Shown: positions 393 through 63,285 of the stretch, piece by piece | How the letters are laid out: each line of letters opens with the position of its first letter | Numbering within the stretch: position 1 is the first letter of the stretch | Assembly (NCBI GenBank): GCA_003550725.1 | Contig: PUKZ01000066.1 | Span: 1 to 64,000, forward strand | Direction: 5' to 3' | From: Bacteroidales bacterium | GTDB taxonomy: Bacteria; Bacteroidota; Bacteroidia; Bacteroidales; UBA7960 | DNA length: 64,000 nt | Notes under the pieces: generated by a model | What the model was told of the DNA's origin: nothing | The model's database searches: none | The model's input: only the letters and a program-made list of their open reading frames with translations | Position numbers and translations under genes: made by a program

Positions 393-3002
393 ATGCAAAA
401 TTCATTACCAATAAAAATCAGGAAAAACATACTTATAATACTTGCATATTTGTTCTCTGTATCTGCTGTTTTAGGGCAAAATATATCATTGAACCACGCA
501 GGTCATATCATTATTGAAGAAGAAGCAATTGAAGAGGCTTCTTATTTCGAAAAAGAGGATAAAAAATTTATCCGTCTGGGTAAAAAAGTTTTTCAGGGCA
601 ATGGAATCTACAAAATAAAAAATGGTTATCTCACTCTTGAAGTTCAAGAAATTGCTACTCCTGCTGTTCTGAGATTATATGATGAATCCGGGGGAAAACA
701 ACACAAGATGCATTTCAACAGGGTATATAATCCTGTATTTTCGCCCTGTAAAAAACATATGTTATTTTTTGATGCACAAAACCTTGTTGCATTCAACACA
801 ATTGATTATTCAGTAAAAAAATTTCCGGGTTCTTCTGTTTTCTCTATAGATAGCCGGGGTAACCCTATTTTTTATGATGAAAAGAATAAACACATCAGGT
901 TAGGTGAATCAAAAGTTCCATTTGAAAACCAGCCACATGAGATTCTTGTTCAGCAGGATACTACTTATATATTTTCACGCCATAGTATATTTTCTATATA
1001 TCAAAAAGATCCTTATAAGATCCATGATATGGAGGGTACTTTCTTTCAGGCACGTATCCATAATGATGAGGTATATTTTGTAACCAAGCAAACTGAAAAA
1101 GAGCGGTTTGTGTTTACATTGTACCACCTATACGATCATGGATCAGTGTCTGTAGTTGACACAACTGTATATGAAAGAGAGATACGATCACTGAAGAATG
1201 GAGGCATTCCTTCACCACTAAAGTACGGGGAGAACTATAAACATCCCATAGGAAACAGTTATGGCGCTATTCAACAATACGGTGGATATCCATACCTGCA
1301 TGCCGGTGTTGATTTTTTAGGTGATGACTATGAAGATGTTTTTGCTGTTAAGGATGGCGTAGTAAAAGCCATTTTAACTACAAGCGGGGATCTGCATTGG
1401 CGCCTTGCAACTGCTAATGAAGATACACCGGAGAAAACAGAAGGATATCTTTATGCACACCTTATAGAAGAAACCATTCCGTTTACAACCGGTGATTCTG
1501 TTTATGCCGGCGAAGTGGTTGGCGAATTAGTACCATGGCCGGGATGGGATTTCACCCATATACATTTTGCCAGAATTAAAGACGAAGGAAATATATGGGA
1601 TGGAGCCTGGTGGACAACCAACAACCCACATGTTGATGTCTTAGAACTTATTGATACTACTCCACCAATATTTCGAAATGCCATAGACAACGACTTGCTC
1701 GCATTCAGAGATGAACACAACAACTACCTTGACCCTGAAGAGCTAGAAGGAAAAATAAGGATCATTTCAAAGATACATGACCTGGCAAATACCCACTGGA
1801 AAATAGATGTCTACAAAATTGGTTTTGAAGTGTATGATATTGAAGATCCCGATAGCCCCATTATAGAAAAAACATCTTTTGCATACGACTTTAAGCTAGA
1901 TACCTATATCACCGGTGAGTACGATAACATGATAAGGGAAACAATATACTCAAGAGATGAAACATGCTTTTCGATAGCAAACTACGACCAAAGGGAATAT
2001 TATCAAATTATCTCCAATACATCCGGTACAAAAGAGGTCAAAGAAGGTGATAAAGATATATTATTTGATACCAAAAAGTTTCCCAATGGCAAATATATTA
2101 TCCGGGTTTGGGCAATAGATGCATCTATGAATGAAGAATATGCCGATATGACAATCGAAATATATAACGAAGGACATATTCCAAAATATGATGTAATTTT
2201 CAAGGTGAAAGACAAAAACAATGAACCTGTTAAAGATGCCACCATTACTCTTAACGAACATACCAATGAGCCGGGAAACTATCATTTTTCAGATATCGAA
2301 CCCGGAACCTACTCTTATATTGTCGAAAAAGATGACTATGAAACTGTAGAAGAAGAGGTAGAAGTTGTTAATAAGGATGTTATAGAAGAGGTATATATGG
2401 ATATAATTACTCACGAAGTAACTTTTAAAGTTGATCTCACACGTGCTATCCACCATGGATTACTTGAAGGTTTTGACTGCGATGTTCATAGTATCAAAAT
2501 AACCGGAAGCATGCTTGATTGGGCCAAGCCGGGCAGCGACCCCGATAACCAGGTAATGGAAAAATCAAACAATGATCCTTTGGTTTATGGTATAGTACAC
2601 CACCTCGAAACAGGAAGCTATGACTACAAATACTACTCTGATTTGCTGGGAGATGGCTTTGATGGTGCCGAATGGAAAGACGGCGACAACAGGATGATAG
2701 AAGTTTATGAAGATATGCTCGTTGAAGATATGTTTGGACCTGATGACCTGCAAGTTATAAAATCTGATGATATAAACATATCGGTATATCCAAACCCCGC
2801 AAACAACAATCTATTTGTAAAATCGAAAAAAAATATTAAAAACATAAAAATACTCGGCATGCATGGCCAAACAATAATTACAGAGCCTGTAAACAATATG
2901 CAATACGAACTAGATGTATCAGGCCTCCATAATGGGTTATACTTTATCAGGATACATACAAGCAGCGGTATAAGTACCAAAAAAATACAAATAGCTAAAT
3001 AA
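393..3002 (+). CDS. Secreted M23-family metallopeptidase-like protein with T9SS sorting domain
   Basis: The 869-residue protein starts with a signal peptide (hydrophobic run at about residues 12-28). Residues of roughly 285-400 form an M23/LytM-like domain: HAGVD places a zinc-type His303 and Asp307, and HIH places His389 and His391, so the HxxxD and HxH zinc signature is present. Around 600-680 lies a carboxypeptidase-regulatory-like beta domain (VKDATITLNE, then DIEPGTYSYIVEK). Around 685-800 lies an extra beta-sandwich-like segment of uncertain family. The last 75 residues (YPNPANNNLFV, then GLYFIRI) are a type A T9SS sorting domain, so the protein should be exported by Sec, moved across the outer membrane by T9SS and anchored or released there. 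Peptidoglycan or peptide cleavage is inferred from the M23 fold; the true substrate is unknown. It stands alone, with the T9SS gene porT about 21 kb downstream. Confidence 0.85.
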   Translation: MQNSLPIKIRKNILIILAYLFSVSAVLGQNISLNHAGHIIIEEEAIEEASYFEKEDKKFIRLGKKVFQGNGIYKIKNGYLTLEVQEIATPAVLRLYDESGGKQHKMHFNRVYNPVFSPCKKHMLFFDAQNLVAFNTIDYSVKKFPGSSVFSIDSRGNPIFYDEKNKHIRLGESKVPFENQPHEILVQQDTTYIFSRHSIFSIYQKDPYKIHDMEGTFFQARIHNDEVYFVTKQTEKERFVFTLYHLYDHGSVSVVDTTVYEREIRSLKNGGIPSPLKYGENYKHPIGNSYGAIQQYGGYPYLHAGVDFLGDDYEDVFAVKDGVVKAILTTSGDLHWRLATANEDTPEKTEGYLYAHLIEETIPFTTGDSVYAGEVVGELVPWPGWDFTHIHFARIKDEGNIWDGAWWTTNNPHVDVLELIDTTPPIFRNAIDNDLLAFRDEHNNYLDPEELEGKIRIISKIHDLANTHWKIDVYKIGFEVYDIEDPDSPIIEKTSFAYDFKLDTYITGEYDNMIRETIYSRDETCFSIANYDQREYYQIISNTSGTKEVKEGDKDILFDTKKFPNGKYIIRVWAIDASMNEEYADMTIEIYNEGHIPKYDVIFKVKDKNNEPVKDATITLNEHTNEPGNYHFSDIEPGTYSYIVEKDDYETVEEEVEVVNKDVIEEVYMDIITHEVTFKVDLTRAIHHGLLEGFDCDVHSIKITGSMLDWAKPGSDPDNQVMEKSNNDPLVYGIVHHLETGSYDYKYYSDLLGDGFDGAEWKDGDNRMIEVYEDMLVEDMFGPDDLQVIKSDDINISVYPNPANNNLFVKSKKNIKNIKILGMHGQTIITEPVNNMQYELDVSGLHNGLYFIRIHTSSGISTKKIQIAK

Positions 3003-3075
3003 TTTTGATATAATTGCCCTAGTTGAAGTTTTATAATTACCCTGCTCAATCCCGGTAGAAAACTGCAAAAAAGTA

Positions 3076-3095
3076 GATAATTATTGATAATTATC
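3076..3095. repeat. AT-rich perfect inverted repeat behind the M23/T9SS gene
   Basis: GATAATTAT (3076-3084) and ATAATTATC (3087-3095) are perfectly complementary with a 2-base centre, about 75 bases after the stop codon. There is no following T-run, so it is a weak terminator candidate or an incidental palindrome. Confidence 0.4.
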
Positions 3096-3258
3096 CTAAC
3101 CGTCAATAGTATACTTAATTACTGAACATACGGTTTATATAAAAAATTCAAAAACAAACCCAACCTGAAATTTAAAAAAAAACAATTCAAAAAAGCCAAC
3201 AAAAATTTGTTTAACAATAATTATCTTTGATTAACATTTTCTTGTTTTAAAACATGAT

Positions 3259-3304
3259 AGTGACGGGTAACGAGTGACGGGTGACGAGTGACGGGTGACG
3301 GGTC
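3259..3304. repeat. Three tandem 14-bp units, AGTGACGGGTRACG
   Basis: Units lie at 3259-3272, 3273-3286 and 3287-3300, followed by GGTC. Unit 1 has A and units 2 and 3 have G at position 11. Each unit is itself made of two related 7-mers (GTGACGG/GTGACGA type). The tract is markedly GC-richer than its surroundings and lies about 100 bases before the NAD(P)HX repair gene. The rest of 3003-3399 holds the AT palindrome and otherwise featureless AT-rich DNA. Confidence 0.85.
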
Positions 3305-3399
3305 AATAAAGCGTTAACCGCCACTAAAAATTTAGATAATAAAACATTAAGGTGTAAATCATTGTAAGTAAAAACAGATTAATAACCTATGTTATTCAA

Positions 3400-4920
3400 A
3401 TGAAAATATTAAATTCTGATCAAATTCGTGAAGCTGATTCCTATACAATTAAAAATGAACCTATTGAATCGATAGATTTAATGGAACGTGCATCTTACGC
3501 TTGTTATAAATGGATCAAACGCAATTTAAAGAAAAAAAAGAAGATACAAGTTTTTTGCGGTATGGGTAATAATGGCGGAGATGGCTTAGCAATAGCCAGA
3601 ATGCTTGGGGGAACGGGATATGAAGTTTCTGTATTCATAATAAACCATACCCAAAAAGGCTCTAAAGACTTTCAAATTAATGAAGAAAGGTTAAAAAAAG
3701 TACGGGGAATAAAAATCCATTATATAAACCAGGAATCTTCCCTGCCCAAAATTGAAAAAGAAGCAATTGTTATTGACGCTATATTCGGCTCAGGTTTGAA
3801 AAGACCGCTTGAAGGTTTCATTGCCTCTATAGTACATCATATAAATAGTTCGGCAACTATTATAGTATCTATAGATTTTCCAAGCGGATTGTTTTGTGAT
3901 AATAACAGTGAAAATATTGAAAAAAACATTATCAGAGCCAGTTACACTTTAACATTTCAAGTGCCCAAACTATCATTCATGTTTCCTGAAAACAATAAAT
4001 ATGTTGGCAAGTGGTATATTTTGGATATAGGTTTACACCGGGACTTTTTAAATGACATTGATTCAAATAAACACCTTGTTTTAAAAGAAGATATTGAATA
4101 TATACACAAAAGCCGCGACAAGTTTTCTCACAAAGGCAATTATGGACATGGATTATTAATAAGCGGCAGCTATGGTAAAATGGGCGCAGCTATACTGGCA
4201 TCCAGGGGTGCCTTACGATCCGGCATAGGTCTGCTTACAACACATATTCCAAGATGTGGATATCAGATTATTCAATCAAGCGTTCCCGAAGCAATGTGTA
4301 GTATTGATGACAATGAAACCATCTTTACCGGGGTTAAAGACATTGGGGTCTATAGTGCAATAGGTATAGGTCCTGGCTTAGGAACTGATGAAAATACTGA
4401 GGCGGGGTTAAAGTTATTAATACAAAATTATTCGGCACCAATGGTATTAGATGCAGATGCTTTGAACATATTAGCCAACAACCCTACATGGTTATCTTTT
4501 TTACCAAAGGGCTCTGTAATTACTCCACATATAAAAGAGTTTGAAAGAATTACTGGCAAATCCAGCAACAGTTACGAGCAAATGCAAAAAGCTCTTGAAC
4601 TCGCTTTCCGTTACCAAATTTTTATAATTTTAAAAGGTGCGCATACATTAACTGCTTTCCCTGACGGCAGATCATATTTTAATTCGTCAGGAAATCCCGG
4701 TATGGCTACCGGGGGAACCGGCGATGTATTAACAGGGATCATATTAGGATTACTTACCCAGGGTTATCTACCTTCTGAAGCAACAGTAGCCGGAGTTTAC
4801 CTGCACGGATTAGCAGCCGATATTGCAGCCCGACGTAAAGGATATGAAGCTCTTTTGCCAGGAGACATTGTAGAAAGTTATTACAAAGCAGTTAAAAAAA
4901 CATTTTCTTATGTGAACTGA
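3400..4920 (+). CDS. nnr: Bifunctional NAD(P)H-hydrate epimerase / ADP-dependent (S)-NAD(P)H-hydrate dehydratase
   Basis: This 506-residue fusion repairs hydrated NADH and NADPH. The N-terminal YjeF_N epimerase half (about 1-215) interconverts R and S forms. The C-terminal ribokinase-like half (about 225-505) dehydrates the S form using ADP. Visible signatures are MKILNSDQIREAD at the start, the glycine-rich loop GMGNNGGDG (residues 54-62), and GGTGDVLTG with Asp442 at the nucleotide site of the dehydratase. Length and domain order match the usual bacterial fusion. The start ATG at 3400 is the first in frame and gives the normal family N-terminus. It appears to be a single-gene unit. Confidence 0.95.
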   Translation: MKILNSDQIREADSYTIKNEPIESIDLMERASYACYKWIKRNLKKKKKIQVFCGMGNNGGDGLAIARMLGGTGYEVSVFIINHTQKGSKDFQINEERLKKVRGIKIHYINQESSLPKIEKEAIVIDAIFGSGLKRPLEGFIASIVHHINSSATIIVSIDFPSGLFCDNNSENIEKNIIRASYTLTFQVPKLSFMFPENNKYVGKWYILDIGLHRDFLNDIDSNKHLVLKEDIEYIHKSRDKFSHKGNYGHGLLISGSYGKMGAAILASRGALRSGIGLLTTHIPRCGYQIIQSSVPEAMCSIDDNETIFTGVKDIGVYSAIGIGPGLGTDENTEAGLKLLIQNYSAPMVLDADALNILANNPTWLSFLPKGSVITPHIKEFERITGKSSNSYEQMQKALELAFRYQIFIILKGAHTLTAFPDGRSYFNSSGNPGMATGGTGDVLTGIILGLLTQGYLPSEATVAGVYLHGLAADIAARRKGYEALLPGDIVESYYKAVKKTFSYVN

Positions 4921-57684: not shown

Positions 57685-60306
57685 ATGAATTTTAATAATT
57701 TCACTATAAAATCACAGGAAGCTATACAAAAATCACAAGAAATAGCATCGGGTAATAATCATCAGTCGATAGAGACCGGGCATTTGCTTAAAGGTATTTT
57801 GGCTGTTGATGACAATGTGGTTCCATATTTACTAAAAAAGCAAAATATAAACATTGATAACATTAAAACTGTACTTGACAGTTTAATAGAAAGTTACCCA
57901 AAGGTTTCAGGTGGTGATATTTATCTTTCGCGTAATTCTACCAAAGTTCTGCAAAAATCAAATAATTTATTAAAAGACTTTGGAGATGAATTTGTAGCTA
58001 TTGAGCATATATTTCTGGCATTATTAAAGAACGGCGATGATGTTTCGCAAGTTCTTAAAGATGCGGGGGTAACCGAAAAAGACTTGATAGCTGCTATAAA
58101 AGATTTGCGAAAAGGTTCACAGGTAAAAAGCCAAACTGCGGAAGATACTTACAATGCATTAGACAAGTATGCTCATAATTTAAACGACCTTGCTTCAAAA
58201 AATAAGCTTGATCCTGTTATAGGACGTGATGATGAGATACGCAGAGTATTACAAATATTGTCAAGGCGTACCAAGAACACCCCCGTACTTATAGGTGAGG
58301 CGGGTGTTGGGAAAACCGCTATTGCCGAGGGCATTGCGCATAGAATTGTAATCGGTGATGTTCCGGAAAACCTGAAAACCAAAAAAATATTTTCGCTTGA
58401 TATGGGGGCACTAATTGCAGGTGCCAAATATAAAGGCGAATTTGAAGAACGTTTAAAGAGTGTTGTTAAAGAAGTAACTGAATCCGACGGAGAGTTTGTG
58501 CTTTTCATAGATGAGATACATACCCTGGTTGGAGCAGGTGCAACAGGTGAAGGCGCAATGGATGCAGCCAATATACTTAAACCGGCACTGTCAAGAGGTG
58601 AACTAAGGGCTATTGGTGCAACCACTCTAAAAGAATATCAACGATATTTTGAAAAAGATAAAGCACTGGAGAGAAGGTTTCAAATTGTAACAATTGATGA
58701 ACCTGAAAAAACAGATGCTATTTCAATATTAAGAGGCTTAAGAGAAAGATACGAAAGCCATCACAAGGTACGAATTAAAGACGATGCCATAATTTCTGCA
58801 GTGGAGCTTTCGATAAGATATATTACTGACCGGTTTTTGCCTGACAAAGCAATTGATTTAATTGACGAAGCAGCATCAAAATTACGCTTAGAAATTAACT
58901 CCGTGCCGGAAGAACTTGACGAAGCCGAACGTAAGATAAGGCAATTAGAAATCGAACGTGAAGCCATAAAACGTGAAAAAGACAAAACCAAGCTGGAAAA
59001 GCTAAACAATGACCTGGCACGTCTTAACGAACAGCGTGATCAGCTAAAAGCCAAATGGCAAAGTGAAAAAGAAATTGTAAACAGTATCCAGGAGTGCAAG
59101 AAAAAAATAGAAGAATATAAATTTGAAGCTGAACAAGCCGAAAGAAACGGAGATTATGGTAAGGTCGCAGAATTACGTTATGGAAAGATAAAAGAAACTG
59201 AAGAGAATCTTGAAAAATTGAAGAATAATTTAGATGAAATGCAAGCCGATAGTGCATTGATCAATGAAGAAGTTAATGCCGAAGATGTTGCTGATGTTGT
59301 ATCAAAATGGACTGGTATTCCGGTGAGTAAAATGCTGCAAAGCGAACGTGAAAAATTACTGAAACTTGAGGACGAACTGCATAAAAGAGTAGTTGGCCAG
59401 GATGAAGCTATAGTTGCATTATCGGATGCTATAAGACGTAGCAGGGCCGGATTACATGACCCGAAACGCCCTATGGGGTCTTTTATTTTTCTTGGTTCTA
59501 CAGGTGTCGGAAAAACAGAATTAGCAAAAACTCTTGCAGAATTTCTGTTTGACGATGAAAACAATATGATAAGGATAGACATGTCAGAATACCAGGAACG
59601 CCACACCGTATCAAGACTAATTGGAGCACCACCGGGATATGTCGGTTATGAAGAAAGCGGGCAGCTAACCGAATCAGTCAGGCGCAAGCCATACTCTGTT
59701 ATTCTGCTCGATGAGATTGAAAAAGCACACCACGACGTTTTTAACATTTTATTGCAAGTGCTTGATGATGGAAGATTAACCGATAATAAGGGAAGAACAG
59801 CTGATTTTCGCAATACTATTGTGATTATGACATCAAACATAGGATCTACGCTAATACAAGAAAAATTTGAAAAGTTGAATAATGAAAACCAGGAACAGGT
59901 AGTAGCCGATACACGTGAAGAAGTTTTTGCCTTGCTGAAAAAAGCAATAATGCCTGAATTTCTAAACAGGATTGATGAAGTAATAATGTTTAAGCCACTT
60001 TCTAAAAAAGAAATTTCTGATATTGTAAAATTGCAGCTAAATATAGTTAACCAACGTCTGCGTGAAAACGGGTATGAAATAGAGCCTACCAAAAATGCTG
60101 TAGATTGGATCGCACAGCTAGGTTACGATCCGCAATTTGGTGCAAGGCCGTTAAAAAGAGTTATTCAACGCAGTTTACTAAATAATCTGTCTAAAGACAT
60201 ACTTGCAGGCAATATCCAATCAAATTCAAAAATAGTAATTGATGTTAAAGATCATAAATTAACTTTTAAGTGCAAAGACCGGAACGTAGAAAAAACGGAA
60301 ACATAA
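57685..60306 (+). CDS. clpB: ATP-dependent disaggregase ClpB
   Basis: The 873-residue Hsp100 protein works with DnaK/DnaJ/GrpE to pull proteins out of aggregates. The N domain (1-145) is followed by AAA1 with Walker [10 protein letters not shown] (Lys210) and [12 protein letters not shown], the long coiled-coil middle domain (about 405-525) specific to ClpB, and AAA2 with GSTGVGKTE (Lys610) and [10 protein letters not shown]. It lacks the ClpP-binding IGL loop. The tail ends NVEKTET. The gene is single and convergent with the baeRF-like gene. Confidence 0.96.
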
Positions 60307-60386: not shown

Positions 60387-60467
60387 TACCTTAAAGACTA
60401 AAAGATAGAGTGCATTTAACTTGCAGTAGTAAGTTTAAATAATCTCTGTTGTTTAGTCTTTAAGGTA
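60387..60467. terminator. Long structured inverted repeat between clpB and the baeRF-like gene
   Basis: TACCTTAAAGACTAAA (60387-60402) and TTTAGTCTTTAAGGTA (60452-60467) are perfect 16-bp reverse complements. The 49-base loop contains a second stem (ATTTAACTT with AAGTTTAAAT, one bulge). A TTTTTG tract follows on the plus strand. It is well placed as a bidirectional terminator of the convergent genes, though the large structured loop is unusual and an RNA element cannot be excluded. Confidence 0.7.
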
Positions 60468-60524: not shown

Positions 60525-61589
60525 TTAGTATCGCAAAACTGCAGCTATTCTGTTATAATCTTTCAATAAACCATCATCAACAAATACAACCTTACCACCC
60601 TTGTCAATAACAATTTCGGCCGCTTCATCCACAGCATCATCAATCATTCCTTTCTCAGGTTTATCAATAGGTGTAATACTATTATCCTCATTATGCCTGC
60701 ATGACTGATGATAATTCTCCTCAACCAATAACAGGCTTACACGGCCTTCTTTGGCAAAACGCCACACATTGCTTATATTGGCAGTATAATTGCCTGTATT
60801 ATGGGCTTTCTCCAACTCATCAATAAATTTATTTCTCTCATCCGACATTTTTTCTTCCACCAAAGGCCAGATTTTCTTGCCGATATCATGAGCTGAGGTG
60901 TTTATATAACTACCCTCAATAAAGGCAATAATATGTTTGTCAAGATCAGTAACTTCTTTAAAAAATCCCAAATTTTTCTCAACACCCATAACAACTAAGC
61001 TTTGTTGCTCATTATTATAATACTCCTTCAACGCCCTTGATGCTCTTGCGAAAAATTCTTTAACCTTCTTTGCCCTCTCTTTTGACAAATCGCTTGGATT
61101 TAGATCATAAAAATCCAAATTAGAATAAATCGGAAATTCATTTTGTTCTATTTCAGAAGCTTCATCACGATTACATTGAATAAGCCTTATTTTTTCAATA
61201 CTTAAAACCAACACATAATATCTTATACCGCGATTAACATTCATAATTATATCACGTGTGGCAAAAGTTCTATCAATCACAACCCGATTATTTACAGGAA
61301 AAGGCAAATCAATTATTGTCGCAAAATTATTATTGACAAACAAAGCTAACCCATCCAGGGTACGGCTTTTGTCTACCTTTTCTGCAAGTCCTTTAAGCTT
61401 ATCAACATAAAACTGTGTTTCTCTCTTTGAGAATTCTTTTTCAAGCCTCTCTTCTGCATCACCTATCAGTTTTTTAAGTAAAATCTCATTTTGATGATAC
61501 TCCGGAGCTGTACGATAAGTAGACAATAACACAGATATACAAGGATAACCTTGTTCTTTCATCAATTTATTCAACACAATTTGATTCAT
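60525..61589 (-). CDS. Bacterial release-factor-like protein (baeRF family, Balon-like candidate ribosome hibernation factor)
   Basis: The protein has about 355 residues. The N-terminal part (LMKEQGYPCISVLLSTYRT, then KKLIGDAEERLEKEF) and the middle (TLDGLALFVNNNFATIIDLP, then RYYVLVLSIEKIRLIQCNRDE) match the bacterial homologues of archaeo-eukaryotic release factor eRF1 (baeRF). The C-terminal part (LVVEENYH-like, then VVFVDDGLLKDYNRIAAVLRY) resembles the eRF1 domain 3 / L7Ae-like fold. Psychrobacter Balon, which binds and preserves idle ribosomes, belongs to this superfamily. I see no GGQ release motif. ATG at 61616 is an alternative start nine codons earlier. It is convergent with clpB, which fits a stress role but does not prove one. 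Confidence 0.75.
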   Translation of the reverse strand: MNQIVLNKLMKEQGYPCISVLLSTYRTAPEYHQNEILLKKLIGDAEERLEKEFSKRETQFYVDKLKGLAEKVDKSRTLDGLALFVNNNFATIIDLPFPVNNRVVIDRTFATRDIIMNVNRGIRYYVLVLSIEKIRLIQCNRDEASEIEQNEFPIYSNLDFYDLNPSDLSKERAKKVKEFFARASRALKEYYNNEQQSLVVMGVEKNLGFFKEVTDLDKHIIAFIEGSYINTSAHDIGKKIWPLVEEKMSDERNKFIDELEKAHNTGNYTANISNVWRFAKEGRVSLLLVEENYHQSCRHNEDNSITPIDKPEKGMIDDAVDEAAEIVIDKGGKVVFVDDGLLKDYNRIAAVLRY

Positions 61590-61616
61590 TTTTCCAACAA
61601 TTTTTATGTTAAACAA

Positions 61617-62064: not shown

Positions 62065-63285
62065 TTGAATCTTCCATATTACATAGCATTACGTTTCGGA
62101 CACGGTGATAAAAGCAGCCGCTTCACCGGCATTGTAAAAAAAATATCTGTTATCAGCATAGCCCTTGGCCTGGCGGCAATGGTTATTTCTGTGGCTATTG
62201 TGACCGGTTTTCAACAAGAGATACGTGAAAAAGCTATTGGTTTTGGATCACATATTCAGATAACCCATTTTGATTATAATATATCTCATGAAACTCGCCC
62301 TATAAGTAAAAACCAGCATTTTTACCCTGATTTAAAAGAAGTTTCCGGAATCCGTCATATACAGATATTTGCTACCAAGGCCGGTATTATAAAAACCGAC
62401 GATGATATTCATGGTACTGTGCTAAAAGGCATAGGCGATGATTTTGACTGGTCATTTTTTGACAAAACTATTATTGAAGGCAAACCCATTAGTTTTGAAA
62501 AAGAAGGTGCAAGTAACGATATCATCATTTCAAAGTCTGTTGCAAACATGCTAAATCTAAACCTGGAAGACGATGTAATAATTTATTTTATTGAAGACCC
62601 CCCCAGGGTGCGCAGACTTAACATAAGCGGAATATATGAAACCGGGCTGACTGAGTTGGACGAATTGTTTATTCTTGGTGATATCAGGCACATTCAAAGA
62701 TTAAATAACTGGGATGAAGATGAAATAGCCGGTTTTGAAGTTTTAATTGATGACTATGACCAACTGGAACGTTTAGGAAATTATGTTTATGAAGAAATCG
62801 GATATGAGCTTATAAGCAAAACCATTGCACAATTATACCCTCAAATTTTTGACTGGCTTGAACTATTGGATATGAATGTTTATGTAATTATTTTTTTGAT
62901 GGTTATAGTAGCCGGAATAAACATGATAACTACCCTGCTGATTTCTGTTCTCGAAAAAACAAATCTTATTGGTATTATGAAAGCTCTTGGCGGCAACAAT
63001 AATTTAATAAGACGCATCTTTTTATATAATGCGGGATTTATGATCGCCAGGGGTTTACTAATAGGCAATGCCATAGCCCTGGCTTTATGTTTGATACAAT
63101 ATTATACAGGAATAATAACTTTACCACAGGAATCTTATTATGTATCGGAAGTTCCGATTAACATTAATCTTCTTCACATATTGTTGCTAAACGCGGGCAC
63201 TTTTCTGGTTTGTATATTTATGCTGATATTACCTTCTTACATAGTAACCAGGATTTCCCCGGTTAAGGCAATTACATTCAGGTAA
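62065..63285 (+). CDS. LolC/LolE-type lipoprotein-releasing ABC permease
   Basis: The 406-residue protein has the four-helix MacB/FtsX permease topology: one helix near the N-terminus (about 23-45), a periplasmic domain (about 50-260) and three C-terminal helices (about 265-290, 318-340 and 368-395). NLPYYIALRFGHGDKSSRFTG and KISVISIALGLAAMVISVAI match LolC/LolE, which with ATPase LolD release lipoproteins from the inner membrane. The start is TTG at 62065; the next in-frame ATG is far inside the domain and the family N-terminus fits. lolD is not in the window. Confidence 0.9.
   Translation: MNLPYYIALRFGHGDKSSRFTGIVKKISVISIALGLAAMVISVAIVTGFQQEIREKAIGFGSHIQITHFDYNISHETRPISKNQHFYPDLKEVSGIRHIQIFATKAGIIKTDDDIHGTVLKGIGDDFDWSFFDKTIIEGKPISFEKEGASNDIIISKSVANMLNLNLEDDVIIYFIEDPPRVRRLNISGIYETGLTELDELFILGDIRHIQRLNNWDEDEIAGFEVLIDDYDQLERLGNYVYEEIGYELISKTIAQLYPQIFDWLELLDMNVYVIIFLMVIVAGINMITTLLISVLEKTNLIGIMKALGGNNNLIRRIFLYNAGFMIARGLLIGNAIALALCLIQYYTGIITLPQESYYVSEVPININLLHILLLNAGTFLVCIFMLILPSYIVTRISPVKAITFR

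Follow-up and report, generated by a model that had tools for sequence, protein, structure and literature searches.

The closest described counterpart of the locus is Balon of Psychrobacter urativorans (AOC03_06830), solved in complex with the ribosome (8rd8, 8rdv, 8rdw). The lack of the GGQ and NIKS motifs in Balon and its mycobacterial homologues has already been published (PMC10901736). Two of these homologues, Msmeg1130 and Rv2629 (8v9j, 8v9l, 8v9k), are A-site binders as well. As for the genomic setting, a position beside RaiA is the most frequent neighbourhood reported for Balon (PMC10901736), and adjacency to RaiA/HPF has also been noted for several baeRF families (PMC6514570). Pelota/Dom34 and aeRF1 belong to the same superfamily and have the same order of domains.

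The window analysed here is a stretch of 64,000 nucleotides from an uncultured Bacteroidales lineage. One of its genes is an ordinary, clear member of the family described above and is already named by an existing NCBIfam model (Table 1). The protein that it encodes is very probably a Balon orthologue, acting in A-site ribosome hibernation under stress or starvation. The locus thus adds a clear Balon orthologue from this lineage, and the picture of ribosome hibernation is left unchanged by it. The gene is present in a single copy in the source genome, and its frame is intact, without internal stop. A TTG at 61616, 27 bases upstream of the ATG, could lengthen the frame. Nevertheless, in the two congeners that carry the gene, at 70% identity, the frame starts where this ATG lies, which argues that this start and the coordinates given in the preliminary description are right.

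Table 1. Features of the locus, with positions counted from the first letter of the window
Feature	Position	Strand	Remarks
clpB	57685..60306	+	Pfam AAA_2, ClpB_D2-small; convergent, separate transcript
Long hairpin between the convergent stops	60387..60467	.	33-nt arms, 15-nt gap
Putative Balon-family ribosome hibernation factor (baeRF family 3)	60525..61589	-	354 aa, ATG at 61589
Middle-domain loop region	61065..61151	-	Residues 147-175; from alignments and model; without GGQ
Loop corresponding to the HP motif of Balon	61488..61532	-	Residues 20-34, VLLSTYRTAPEYHQN region; from sequence alignments
FtsX/MacB-type permease gene	62065..63285		Divergent from the Balon-family gene

The preliminary description had placed the protein in the bacterial eRF1-like superfamily as a candidate hibernation factor without a visible GGQ, and had proposed profile searches against baeRF and Balon models together with a structure prediction. 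Both profile searches were significant. The protein scored 340 bits against the NCBIfam model NF052287, over all of its 361 profile positions (1-361). This model, the equivalog AOC03_06830_fam_RHF (AOC03_06830 family ribosome hibernation factor), takes its name from the Balon gene, and its cut-off of 330 bits was exceeded by a small margin. In the Pfam search, the baeRF_family3 model PF18845, which spans the central part of the protein only, gave 128 bits (5.9e-37; cut-off 31.5), with no difference of note from that family, and the sister baeRF families 6, 7 and 8 also exceeded their cut-offs. The superfamily assignment is borne out by these scores. A sequence search of solved structures returned one real match, namely Balon in the 70S complex of P. 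urativorans (8rd8_B and two sister entries), to which residues 6-354 could be aligned (E 6e-41). With a profile built from 40 relatives, the Balon match improved to 1.8e-89, and the mycobacterial Balon proteins Msmeg1130 (7.5e-13) and Rv2629 (2e-4) were found as well. On the basis of these sequence comparisons, chance is excluded as the source of the Balon matches. Identity to Psychrobacter Balon is about 28-29%. In contrast, Msmeg1130 and Rv2629 are only 14-17% identical, and the separate NCBIfam models for these two are not passed by the protein.

The structure was predicted with AlphaFold2 from an alignment of 40 proteins (mean pLDDT 89, pTM 0.80; residues 162-165 are the sole segment below 50). 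The model is a full-length, three-domain eRF1-like fold, and Balon is its closest match. In a Foldseek search of the PDB, the first three ranks were taken by the Balon-ribosome structures 8rdw, 8rdv and 8rd8 (E 1.6e-32 to 5.5e-32, TM about 0.75), the alignment to the Balon chains covering the whole length of the model. Msmeg1130 came next, followed by archaeal aRF1, human eRF1 and Pelota; Msmeg1130 and Rv2629 have the same fold, with TM values of 0.65-0.75. The profile matches and the Balon-like predicted fold together support the proposed role in hibernation, with ribosome binding as the part that would follow by homology. The two results that the preliminary description had named as refuting it, profile searches without a significant hit and a fold lacking the three eRF1-like domains, were both not obtained. 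Non-catalytic members of the superfamily have been proposed to serve in inhibition or disassembly (PMC6514570), and with the superfamily and the domain order in common, the protein could instead be a rescue factor of the Pelota/Dom34 type, which moves into the A site when a ribosome has stalled and favours its splitting. However, Balon is far nearer than Pelota in both fold and sequence (TM about 0.75 versus 0.20-0.46), Pelota/Dom34 and aeRF1 taken together giving TM values of about 0.2-0.5 at 10-17% identity, and the EF-Tu-binding surface of Balon is unlike that of Pelota (PMC10901736). Such a rescue function is hence improbable.

A motif scan of the protein found neither GGQ nor NIKS, in agreement with the preliminary description as far as GGQ is concerned. 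The missing GGQ is a trait of the whole family and not specific to this protein; in one relative, L100, a GGQ does occur but sits in a C-terminal strand (KMGGQVVIV), outside the middle domain. Membership of the aeRF1 superfamily could also suggest an alternative peptide release factor, that is, a peptidyl-tRNA hydrolase. With GGQ absent and a middle-domain loop that is variable and partly of low confidence, this activity is extremely improbable. The loop concerned is putatively equivalent to the GGQ loop of eRF1 and to the lasso of Balon. According to the alignment, it is about 10 residues shorter after residue 147 than in Psychrobacter Balon, and a shortened loop is common among the aligned Bacteroidota sequences. 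A bL27 protein with the N-terminal tail MAHKKG is encoded in the source genome.

The N-terminal loop contains a proline, as in Balon. Ala28-Pro29 stands where Psychrobacter Balon has H27-P28, and Arg26 is retained. H27-P28 was taken as the published HP motif, being the sole His-Pro dipeptide in the aligned Balon chain. Among the 40 relatives, Pro29 is found in 36 and Arg26 in 35, and histidine occupies position 28, giving HP, in 7. The conserved part of the loop therefore appears to be the proline with its neighbouring arginine and not the histidine, which does not seem to be a defining feature of the family in this sample. The HP dipeptide singled out in the first Balon structure is thus apparently not conserved across the family.

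A Balon-family gene is carried by two of the three congeners, and relatives in other genera of the same bacterial family are 46-52% identical. Scanning the genome contigs with the single protein as query gave no match, and an alignment of close relatives gave matches. In the phylum Bacteroidota, 115 of 392 sampled genomes (about 29%) match the family model, only 4 of them above the strict cut-off. The relatives that could be named include Bacteroidales MAGs, Anaerolineae (about 40% identity), Kaistella and Brumimicrobium. Kaistella antarctica and Brumimicrobium glaciale are examples of cultured Bacteroidota with a Balon-family gene. Many of the MAGs bear sediment-type isolate names (CSSed...), which we take to denote soda-lake sediment. 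The literature searched contained no study of, or experiment on, a Bacteroidota Balon, in keeping with the earlier remark that the members of this phylum are largely unstudied. The distribution is patchy, with the gene lacking in one of the three congeners and in about 71% of the sampled Bacteroidota genomes, and the Anaerolineae relatives are consistent with lateral spread, so that a decaying or recently acquired gene, functionless in its host, could be considered. Nevertheless, the frame is uninterrupted, 70% identity is kept with both gene-bearing congeners, and start, stop and gene order are mostly retained. A functionless gene is highly improbable.

Regarding the reported association with RaiA, the Balon-family gene of the window does not adjoin RaiA. 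Related genes in the same bacterial family do: in G008:C21, G023:C200 and G031:C42, a baeRF_family3 gene lies directly before a short RaiA/HPF gene. This RaiA-adjacent paralogue is more divergent, with about 390-408 residues, and no second paralogue of this kind was seen in the source genome. RaiA/HPF (PF02482) was not found in the source assembly, which is 89% complete. An HPF-free lineage with Balon as the sole hibernation factor was considered and rejected, since RaiA/HPF is present in all three congeners. Of 59 genomes examined for it, 50 carry it. With such a distribution, an assembly gap is the simpler and probable cause of the missing gene.

Hibernation is favoured by the score above the Balon equivalog cut-off, the full-length homology, the Balon-like fold, the missing GGQ and NIKS motifs and the bL27 tail, and also by the related baeRF_family3 genes beside RaiA/HPF in the same bacterial family. 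The points against it are AP in place of HP, the short loop, the small equivalog margin, and the lack of RaiA beside the gene and in the assembly. Judging from cryo-EM and biochemistry on homologues, the Balon orthologue would bind ribosomes, associate with EF-Tu-GDP, be induced by stress and have a protective effect. Under stress or starvation, it would occupy the ribosomal A site without requiring a codon. Its N-terminal domain would touch the decoding centre, the GGQ-less middle domain would run along the peptidyl-transferase centre and probably contact the tail of bL27, and the C-terminal domain would be directed towards EF-Tu-GDP. The expected outcome is a reversible block of translation. 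For a protein with AP and a short loop, the A-site contacts may differ in detail from those of Psychrobacter Balon. A separate Bacteroidota type of Balon which, with no histidine for the decoding centre and a short middle loop, blocks the A site via different contacts is rather unlikely; in that case the block could come about, e.g., without the full bL27 trap.

The immediate surroundings of the gene are clpB and an FtsX-type permease gene, in contrast to the RaiA neighbourhood of Balon. The preliminary description had the gene convergent with clpB, and this holds, the gap between the two being 218 bases. Of the 13 same-family relatives with enough contig, 11 have clpB in this convergent position, and the permease gene lies on the far side in every same-family relative whose contig extends that far. 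The arrangement of the three genes is an inherited gene order at the level of the bacterial family. Outside this family the neighbourhood is different, and a Clp ATPase gene was found 2-4 kb away in three genomes, from one other family only. A functional link to clpB was set aside, as the arrangement is confined to the bacterial family and the two genes converge. Since genes in this orientation do not share a transcript, the clpB neighbour is weak evidence of function. In one congener, L061 (G002:C96), a YjeF/Carb_kinase (NAD(P)H-hydrate dehydratase) gene at 1940-3448 takes the place of clpB, and the permease side is retained.

Upstream of the Balon-family gene, no Bacteroidota promoter pattern was found, and the frequency of the pattern in the window shows no excess above chance. 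The inverted repeat between the convergent stops reaches a z of -8.4 against shuffles and is probably a two-way terminator shared by both genes. A repeated element was ruled out, as the hairpin is present in a single copy in the genome. In line with a terminator serving both genes, most relatives have hairpins in the same intergenic gap, and their sequences are unrelated.
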